From assembly GCA_001513155.1 (NCBI GenBank), contig LFSR01000004.1, positions 69,095 through 133,094 on the forward strand: a stretch of 64,000 bases of DNA, given 5' to 3'. Origin of the DNA: Syntrophomonas sp. DTU018 (GTDB lineage Bacteria > Bacillota > Syntrophomonadia > Syntrophomonadales > Syntrophomonadaceae). Shown one piece after another: positions 18,708 through 56,144 of the stretch (position 1 is its first letter; each line of letters begins with the position of its first letter). Position numbers and translations under genes: made by a program. Under the pieces are notes generated by a model. It was not told the origin of the DNA and did not search any database. It saw only the letters and a list, made by a program, of their open reading frames with translations.

Positions 18708-18729
18708 ACGCCTGCAGTATTGCAGGCGT
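18708..18729 (+). repeat. First copy of MCP-gene terminator hairpin (duplicated)
   Basis: A 22-bp sequence forming a 9-bp stem with GTAT loop. It is identical to 18883-18904 but is not followed by a T tract here; the flank is GAGAG. It looks like one half of a target duplication made by the element at 18730-18882. Confidence 0.8.
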
Positions 18730-18882
18730 GAGAGTTTCAAAAAAGTTGCTAAAAGAGATCGCCACGTCGCTGCGCTCCTCGCGATGACATACCAAAAGGC
18801 CATCTTATGTGTCATTGCGAGCCCCGGAGGGGCGTGGCAATCTCGAACGTCTAACCGCTAAAAGACTTCTTTGACAGTCTGG
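18730..18882. mobile_element. MITE-like palindromic element A, ~153 bp
   Basis: Non-coding element lying exactly between two copies of a terminator hairpin. Its core is an imperfect palindrome: GAGATCGCCACGTCGC at the left and GTGGCAATCTC at the right. The outer ends are weakly inverted (GAGAGTTTCAAAAAAG versus, on the complement, CAGACTGTCAAAGAAG). The same architecture and length recur at 54757-54910, and core arms recur at 34.3-34.6 kb and 46.2-46.5 kb. No open reading frame. Probably non-autonomous. Confidence 0.75.
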
Positions 18883-18904
18883 ACGCCTGCAGTATTGCAG
18901 GCGT
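18883..18904 (+). terminator. Second copy of duplicated hairpin, functional terminator
   Basis: Identical 22-bp hairpin to 18708-18729, here followed by TTTTCCC, so this copy keeps the original T tract and probably ends transcripts from the chemoreceptor gene side. Confidence 0.75.
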
Positions 18905-34339: not shown

Positions 34340-34638
34340 CTGTGAAAATAACTGCGCTGTGTACTTATGAGGAGCAAAGCGAAGTGGCGATCTGCTAACT
34401 CAAACCGTAAGAAAACATGGAGATTACCACGCCCTTCATGGCGCTCGCAATTTTCACCAGTAAAACAGGCCACGATAAACGAAAACTTAAGTCTGTCATC
34501 GCTATGAAAGGAATTCTTAATTGTCATTGCGAGCCCCGACGGGGCGTGGCAATCTCATTCATAATCAGCCGGGCTTACCGGTTGAGATCGCCACGTCGCT
34601 TCGCTCCTCGCGATGACACAGCGCAGTCATTTTCACAG
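34340..34638. repeat. Composite repeat element C with 23-bp terminal inverted repeats
   Basis: Terminal arms at 34340-34362 and 34616-34638 are inverted copies with one mismatch (CTGTGAAAAT then A/G then ACTGCGCTGTGT). Inside are four arms of the GAGATCGCCACGTCGC / GTCATTGCGAG family, two of them degraded (34364-34457) and two fresh (34520-34619). It occupies most of the 550-bp gap between trpB2 and trmK; no coding sequence is seen. Confidence 0.7.
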
Positions 34639-34675
34639 TAATGATACACCCGACGTGTCGGTGATACATTAGGAA

Positions 34676-46173: not shown

Positions 46174-46457
46174 GCTGTGAAAATAGCTTTCATGTCAGTA
46201 AAAAGGCAACCATTGTGTCATCGCGAGCGCGTAGCGCGTGGCGATCTCTATGGCAACTAACGGTGTGAGTTAACAGATCGCCACGTCGCTTCGCTCCTCG
46301 CGATGACAAGCTTAAGTTTTCATTTATCGTGGCCTGCACCGCAGGTGATGATTGCGAGTCCAGCGAAGCAATCTCAAAAGAGGCTCATAGGCTGCGAAAA
46401 AGAGATCGCCACGTCGCTGTGCTCCTGGCGATGACACAAAGAAGCTATTTTCAAAGC
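46174..46457. repeat. Composite repeat element D
   Basis: Terminal arms GCTGTGAAAATAGCTT (46174-46189) and its inverted copy (46442-46457, one mismatch) enclose several GAGATCGCCACGTCGC / CATCGCGAG arms (46209-46250, 46278-46308, 46347-46375, 46403-46437). Same family as elements A, B and C. No coding sequence seen. Confidence 0.7.
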
Positions 46458-54469: not shown

Positions 54470-54682
54470 ATGGAAAAAGTGGATGTCAGAGGATTAAGTT
54501 GTCCCATGCCGGTAATTAAAACTAAAAAAGCCATAGATCAAGGGGCGCAGGAGTTACTGGTATTGGGAACCAGTCAGGTATCCAAGGAAAATGTATTGAA
54601 ACTGGCGAAATCCCAGGGTTACCAGGCCGAACTCATTGTAGACGGCAAGGATAACTGGGAAATGAAACTAACCCGTAAATAA
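54470..54682 (+). CDS. TusA/YedF-like sulfur or selenium carrier
   Basis: 70-residue SirA/TusA-fold protein with the CPMP motif (GLSCPMPVIKTKKA) whose Cys carries a persulfide or perselenide. It lacks the DsrE-like C-terminal domain of full-length YedF. Likely partner of the preceding transporter. Confidence 0.85.
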   Translation: MEKVDVRGLSCPMPVIKTKKAIDQGAQELLVLGTSQVSKENVLKLAKSQGYQAELIVDGKDNWEMKLTRK

Positions 54683-54730: not shown

Positions 54731-54756
54731 GGAGAACCCGGCGAAAGGGTTCTCCT
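54731..54756 (+). repeat. First copy of tusA-locus terminator hairpin (duplicated)
   Basis: A 26-bp sequence (stem GGAGAACCC / GGGTTCTCC, loop GGCGAAA) identical to 54911-54936, here followed by CAGACTG and not by T bases. Confidence 0.8.
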
Positions 54757-54910
54757 CAGACTGTCGAGAAAGGCCATGTAAAGAGATCGCCACGTCGCTA
54801 CGCTCCTCGCGATGACAATACCGAAATCCATCTTATGTGTCATTGCGAGGCACGAAGTGCCGTGGCAATCTCGAACGCCAAACTATTAATCAGCTTTTTT
54901 GACTCGCTGT
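54757..54910. mobile_element. MITE-like palindromic element B, ~154 bp
   Basis: Same size and core (GAGATCGCCACGTCGC ... GTGGCAATCTC) as element A at 18730-18882. Its ends read CAGACTGTCGAGAAAG and, on the complement, ACAGCGAGTCAAAAAAG. It lies precisely between two exact copies of a terminator hairpin. No coding sequence. Confidence 0.75.
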
Positions 54911-54936
54911 GGAGAACCCGGCGAAAGGGTTCTCCT
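54911..54936 (+). terminator. Second copy of duplicated hairpin
   Basis: Identical to 54731-54756, followed by TATTTGTT. It retains the likely original downstream T-rich flank. It lies 29 bp before the CapA-like start. Confidence 0.65.
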
Positions 54937-54965
54937 TATTTGTTGTTATGAAGGTGGACAAACAG

Positions 54966-56144
54966 GTGAAGAAGAGTGTAGTAATAGTACTTTTCCTAAT
55001 ATGTCTGGGCTTAGCCAGCTCATATTGGATCAACCTGTCATTAACCCAGCAGGCTGTGGTCACTCCTGTATCAGGGGAAGCCAATCCTCAACCCCAAGCA
55101 GAGCCGGATATTATTGAGAATATCACCTTGGCGGCTGCTGGAGATTGCTTGATGCACAATACCCAGATTTGGTCCGGCCAGCAGCCGGGAGGCGGCTACA
55201 ATTTCGATGCTTTTTTTAAGCAGGTCCAGCCTATAATTGCCTCAGCTGATTACAGCTCTACTAATTTCGAGGCGCCCATGGCAGGTGCCGCGTCTGGATA
55301 TACTGGTTATCCTCTTTTCAACAGTCCTGATGAAATGGCATCGGCTTTTAAACAAGCGGGATTCGACTTAGTAGTAACAGCCAACAATCATATTCTGGAT
55401 CGCGGTGTCCAGGGAGCCCTGCGGACCCTGCAGGTCCTGGAACAGGCCGGGCTGGATACAGTGGGGGTATACTCCAGCCAGGAAGCCAGTGAACAATTTC
55501 TGATCAAAGACCTGAAGGGGATCCGGGTGGGTTACCTGGCCTATACATACAGCACCAACGGCATACCAGTGCCGGATGATAAACCCTATCTGGTCAACTT
55601 TTTGGAGCGGGAGAAAATACTGAAAGATATTAGTATCTTGAGACCCCAGGTGGATATCGTGATTTTAGTCTTGCACTGGGGGCAAGAATACAGTCCCAAG
55701 CCTTCCGAGGAACAGAAAGCTCTGGCCCGGGAGTTTTGCGCAGCTGGAGCGGATGTGATCCTGGGCAGTCATCCGCATGTTATCCAGACCATGGAAGTTA
55801 TTCCGGTTGAAGGCAGAAATTGTTTTGTCATTTATTCCATGGGCAACTTTATCAGCCATCAGATAGGCCTGGAGCGCAACAGCGGTGTCATATTGCTAAT
55901 GGAATTCAGGAAAAATTTTACCCTTAATGAAACCAAGCTGACCAGGGTAGACTATATTCCCACTTACAGTCACCCCTATTATGACAATGGCCGACAGCAG
56001 TTTAGAGTAGTGCCGATAGAAGACACCATCCGCAGGATTGAACAGGGGGAAGAACCCTATCTTGGCCGGGGAGACATTCCCACCCTGCAGGCGGTACTGA
56101 ACCATACCCGCAGCCAATTAGGAGAAGGATATTCTTTTAATTAA
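54966..56144 (+). CDS. CapA-family protein (poly-gamma-glutamate synthesis type)
   Basis: 392 residues with an N-terminal signal anchor (VVIVLFLICLGLASSYW). The metallophosphatase-like domain has AAGDCLMHN, NFEAPM, ANNHILDRG and GSHPHVIQ. CapA/PgsA proteins act in polyglutamate or cell-envelope polymer formation. I start at GTG 54966, preceded by GAAGGTGG, because upstream codons run through the terminator repeat. Confidence 0.82.
   Translation: MKKSVVIVLFLICLGLASSYWINLSLTQQAVVTPVSGEANPQPQAEPDIIENITLAAAGDCLMHNTQIWSGQQPGGGYNFDAFFKQVQPIIASADYSSTNFEAPMAGAASGYTGYPLFNSPDEMASAFKQAGFDLVVTANNHILDRGVQGALRTLQVLEQAGLDTVGVYSSQEASEQFLIKDLKGIRVGYLAYTYSTNGIPVPDDKPYLVNFLEREKILKDISILRPQVDIVILVLHWGQEYSPKPSEEQKALAREFCAAGADVILGSHPHVIQTMEVIPVEGRNCFVIYSMGNFISHQIGLERNSGVILLMEFRKNFTLNETKLTRVDYIPTYSHPYYDNGRQQFRVVPIEDTIRRIEQGEEPYLGRGDIPTLQAVLNHTRSQLGEGYSFN

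Follow-up and report, generated by a model that had tools for sequence, protein, structure and literature searches.

DDE transposons normally leave a short target duplication whose length is fixed by the enzyme. The closest described relatives of the element studied here, IS1272 and TnSha1 of staphylococci (IS1182 family), have as targets stem-loops of unrelated sequence and varied size, many of them confirmed terminators (PMC5678879, PMC4923244). IS1272 deletes the stem-loop, wholly or in part, and produces no target duplication (PMC5678879, PMC4923244); duplication of a whole hairpin appears only as the hypothetical pathway (b) of Wan et al. 2017 (PMC5678879). Hairpin and terminator targeting is thus known in the IS1182 family (PMC4923244, PMC5678879). 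The present element resembles IS1272 and TnSha1 in its link to an IS1182-family transposase and in its hairpin or terminator targets of varied size. However, IS1272 removes the stem-loop, whereas here the hairpin is found on both sides, and deletion without duplication was not what we observed.

The element has ends matching those (CAGACTGTMGACAAA) of the ISEfa7 branch of the family and shares whole-hairpin duplications with this branch, whose members are autonomous and 1.5-1.85 kb long, whereas ours appears to be a 154-bp non-coding derivative. It is also similar to the bacterial MITEs RUP, Chunjie and QMITE, which are short, non-coding, multicopy and intergenic, with terminal inverted repeats, but the relevant passages of PMC10969869 mention neither terminator-hairpin targets nor hairpin-length duplications. 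Compared with the available papers, two features are new: a branch in which duplication of the whole hairpin is the rule, and a MITE family with 47 such cases in one genome. In the open literature, we found no paper reporting whole-hairpin duplication as observed, nor the target habit of the ISEfa7 branch; ISfinder lay outside this search. The IS1182 entry of the ISfinder family table leaves room for long direct repeats, which curators may thus have noted.

Loci A and B and the MITE family of the host genome

The window (the whole stretch of DNA analysed, 64,000 nucleotides) contains two related elements, at locus B (54731-54936) and at locus A, with the following features.

54470..54682, + strand: TusA-type sulfurtransferase gene (PF01206), upstream neighbour; the locus B hairpin lies downstream of this gene
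54731..54756, + strand: left 26-bp copy of the target hairpin, native upstream context retained (exact repeat, folding, orthologous empty sites L226, L231 and L236)
54757..54910, + strand: non-coding MITE, very probably of IS1182 type, 154 bp, with CAGACTGTCGAGAAAG at the left end and, in reverse complement, ACAGCGAGTCAAAAAAG at the right end
54783..54872, no strand: internal palindromic repeat GAGATCGCCACGTCGC...GGCAATCTC, present outside MITEs too
54911..54936, + strand: right 26-bp copy of the target hairpin; the native T-rich tract TTATTTGTTGTT comes next
54948..56144, + strand: PGA_cap (CapA-like) protein gene (PF09587), downstream neighbour
18708..18729, + strand: left copy of the locus A hairpin, 22 bp (direct repeat mapped)
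18730..18882, + strand: locus A MITE, related to the locus B element
18883..18904, + strand: right copy of the locus A hairpin, 22 bp, followed by TTTCCC (empty ortholog L239)

The initial annotation had placed a 154-bp element between exact 26-bp hairpin copies at locus B, and its coordinates were correct. Both copies of the hairpin (GGAGAACCCGGCGAAAGGGTTCTCCT) are exact, with 154 bp in between, and the hairpin folds into a 9-bp stem with a 7-nt loop (-9.3 kcal/mol as DNA, z -4.2). Allowing up to 3 mismatches, the 26-mer occurs in the window at these two places only (shuffles expect 0), and its 25-nt core has only these two sites in the whole 2.56-Mb genome. Since the 26-mer (window) and the core (genome) are confined to locus B, the refuting case foreseen in the initial annotation, namely the same hairpin at many unrelated sites without the element, was not encountered. 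The other case that it mentioned is real as well: locus A carries an element of the same family between copies of a different hairpin (ACGCCTGCAGTATTGCAGGCGT), unlike that of locus B in sequence and 22 bp long versus 26 bp.

These two loci belong to a large family. A DNA search of the host genome with the element region gave 44 matches, and a scan with the element ends gave 168 hits versus 26 for the reversed control. At least 47 MITE copies with hairpin direct repeats as outer flanks were mapped, mostly 151-154 bp in size with long forms up to 374 bp; the family is thus short, non-coding and multicopy. Its ends in the host, CAGACTGTCRAAAAAG, match the IS1182 branch ends given above. The 47 duplications represent 47 different hairpin sequences of 15-35 bp (median 24), exact in 26 cases. 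The hairpins hit are usually terminator-like, with a T-tract on the right or an A-tract on the left at 39 of the 47 sites (T alone is found in about 5% of random 8-nt windows). The same MITE family is present in three congeneric genomes, with hairpin duplications of 25 bp (L082), 28 bp (L083) and 19 bp (L084).

As a separate observation, the inner palindromic repeat also occurs outside the mapped MITEs, where GAGATCGCCACGTCGCTTCGCTCCTCGCGATGACA and its relatives form clusters at positions 34444-34644 and 46190-46456 of the window. A first-pass listing of this repeat gave 177 candidate places in the genome.

The hairpin target is duplicated whole, with edges at the stem foot and a length set by the target

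The flanks of the insertion sites were joined around one hairpin copy and searched in three congeneric genomes (G001, G002, G003). Six sites (locus B, locus A, and sites on C13, C15, C2 and C57) align straight through, with a single hairpin and no element. The empty locus B was recovered in G001, G003 and G002 and the empty locus A in G002, while the empty C2 site of G001 aligned over 406 bp at 88% identity with an identical hairpin. In several hairpins, most of the differences among species fall in the loop, which is what conservation of the stem would produce. Because 47 elements lie in 47 different hairpins and the orthologous empty sites carry the hairpin once, the hairpin repeats are target-derived, as the initial annotation had argued from loci A and B. 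Every mapped copy is flanked by hairpins, which would also be expected of element-borne ends moving with the element. However, all 47 differ in sequence, the locus B core is unique in the genome and the empty orthologs with a single hairpin refute this reading, to which we attach practically no probability.

Across the reconstructed sites, pairing between the two sides has values of 0.83-1.0 over the positions that lie 1-7 bp inward from the duplication edge; the edge base itself gives 0.64, and beyond it the values drop to 0.3-0.5. G-C pairs start 1 bp inside the edge; thus, the joints are at the foot of a GC-rich stem. The set of autonomous IS described below gave a like pairing picture, with slightly more A-T pairs at the foot. 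When duplication length was simply correlated with the maximal stem of the reconstructed site, the relation was weak (0.40) because A/T tracts lengthen the stem with mismatches, so that the position-by-position profile constitutes a cleaner test. This profile at the edges of the 47 mapped copies bears out the earlier suggestion that duplication length follows the hairpin.

Transposase candidates and the autonomous IS1182 branch

No IS1182 (NF033551), DUF772 (PF05598) or DDE_Tnp_1 (PF01609) gene was detected in the host genome (59-contig assembly), nor was a Y1 (REP/HUH) transposase in a PF01797 search. The window element is an orphan MITE in this genome, with no partner transposase in the 59 contigs. 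As MITEs can outlive their partner, this lowers the probability of membership in the IS1182 family without abolishing it. Relatives do carry IS1182 genes. One such locus, L108 of G038, has an exact 24-bp hairpin copy on each side and starts with CAGACTGTAGACAAA. The IS1182 DDE transposase profiles (NF033551, PF05598 and PF13751; cut-off 270 bits) gave 474 bits for L108 and 333 bits for a second locus, L113. As for the terminal repeats, the MITE end CAGACTGTCGAAAAA and the IS end CAGACTGTCGACAAA are identical at 14 of 15 positions. L113 is a broken IS1182 gene from the same taxonomic family as the host, with its left end missing and its right end, CAGAGTGTCAAAGAA, directly before a hairpin; over those 15 positions, this end equals the MITE variant CAGAGTGTCAAAGAAG. 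At the level of order and class, searches for the L113 transposase recovered only G019 and G033. Among all the elements recovered, no intact IS had exactly the ends of the MITE.

The HUH/REP transposase hinted at in the initial annotation is not borne out. RAYT systems act on hairpins, and the palindromic inner repeat of the element resembles a REP sequence, so that mobilisation by a REP/RAYT (HUH, Y1) enzyme could be considered. Nevertheless, the genome is without Y1_Tnp, the full-length relatives whose ends match carry genes for IS1182-family DDE transposases, and the target duplications are long, while to our knowledge HUH transposition makes none; this origin is very improbable. Some other DDE family, now absent, may also have mobilised the MITE, its IS1182-like ends being convergent. 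The lack of an IS1182 gene in the host would fit such a history, as would the fact that most MITE variants depart from the IS consensus at position 9 and beyond, but IS1182 copies share the first 8 bases, the target class, the duplication and the edge position, and the end of L113 matches a MITE variant, which makes convergence improbable.

A first end-scan of the IS1182 genes of relatives mixed several branches. Two groups of loci were rejected as partners, as they lie inside palindromic repeats and show no duplication: L111, L115 and L121 (ends CAGACTGTGTGA), and L119, L253 and L254.

With L108 and L109 as queries, a scan across GTDB genomes returned 80 loci. Both ends were recognised in 65 of them, and 57 of these 65 lie between whole-hairpin duplications of 18-36 bp, with 57 different sequences; several of the other 8 run into contig ends or stretches of N. 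L154, L204 and L207 are IS copies of the branch without a clean duplication. Within the scan, the branch is spread across the Bacillota, with hosts in Neobacillus, Bacillus, Cytobacillus, Sporosarcina, Enterococcus, Selenomonadales and Tissierellia. In the tree, ISEfa7 groups with Enterococcus loci that have whole-hairpin duplications. Thus, MITE and autonomous branch show the same target outcome. Since the compared IS copies of other IS1182 branches show no duplication, the habit seems to be a trait of this branch, the others being sampled little.

Among these other branches, L111, L121 and L249-L254 (ends CAGACTGTGTGA or GAGACCACTG) are inserted inside palindromic repeats, many with GGGGACGG, and show no duplication. 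Such insertion is a third target outcome in the IS1182 family.

Candidate mechanism of hairpin duplication

On the sequence evidence, the window element is very probably a non-autonomous MITE of the IS1182 family, mobilised by a DDE transposase that would pick a hairpin and join the element at its 5' feet, duplicating the whole hairpin. The enzyme would recognise its target by shape, as a hairpin or palindrome that is typically an intrinsic terminator. It would then link each 3' end of the element to one of the two target strands, at the 5' foot of the hairpin on that strand, and gap repair of the stretch between the two joints would leave a full copy on each side. As this stretch is the whole hairpin, hairpin length sets duplication length, which is the outcome recorded above. 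The source transposase may have been lost from the host genome or be missing from the assembly.

Strand-transfer chemistry and cruciform extrusion are putative here, and identical scars would be expected from a protein that recognises the palindrome in double-stranded form. IS1182 machinery that recognises a double-stranded inverted repeat through its two half-sites, instead of an extruded or single-stranded hairpin, is a possibility of lesser weight: junctions would be alike in either case, so that sequence alone cannot separate the two, but joint spacings of 15-36 bp without shared sequence would be hard for a rigid dimer. We rather favour, with some reserve, a DDE branch that recognises the hairpin or cruciform and makes its joints at both 5' feet, so that the cut spacing would be set by the folded target and not by the enzyme, termination would be kept both ways and the insertion would do little harm.

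The native T-tract stays with the right copy and the native A-tract, belonging to the opposite strand, with the left copy. As each outer copy keeps its own tract, a terminator should survive in each direction. The stability of the diverged copies agrees with such survival: among 21 diverged duplication pairs in the host, 10 could be decided, and in 9 of these the hairpin on the tract side is more stable than its partner (a small, post hoc comparison).

Taken over more than 100 separate insertion sites (47 MITE, 57 IS), duplications of 15-36 bp track the target fold. Whole-hairpin duplication supplies the missing outcome of pathway b beside the deletion by IS1272 in one family, and the duplications constitute an in vivo record of structure-directed integration. 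They also suggest how elements can use terminators as safe sites, and provide a simple signature for finding IS1182-type MITEs.

Also, the orientation of 35 short host MITEs relative to the terminator T-tract looks biased (25 vs 7, p 0.002, post hoc). The autonomous IS copies are oriented without bias relative to the T-tract (17 vs 20).
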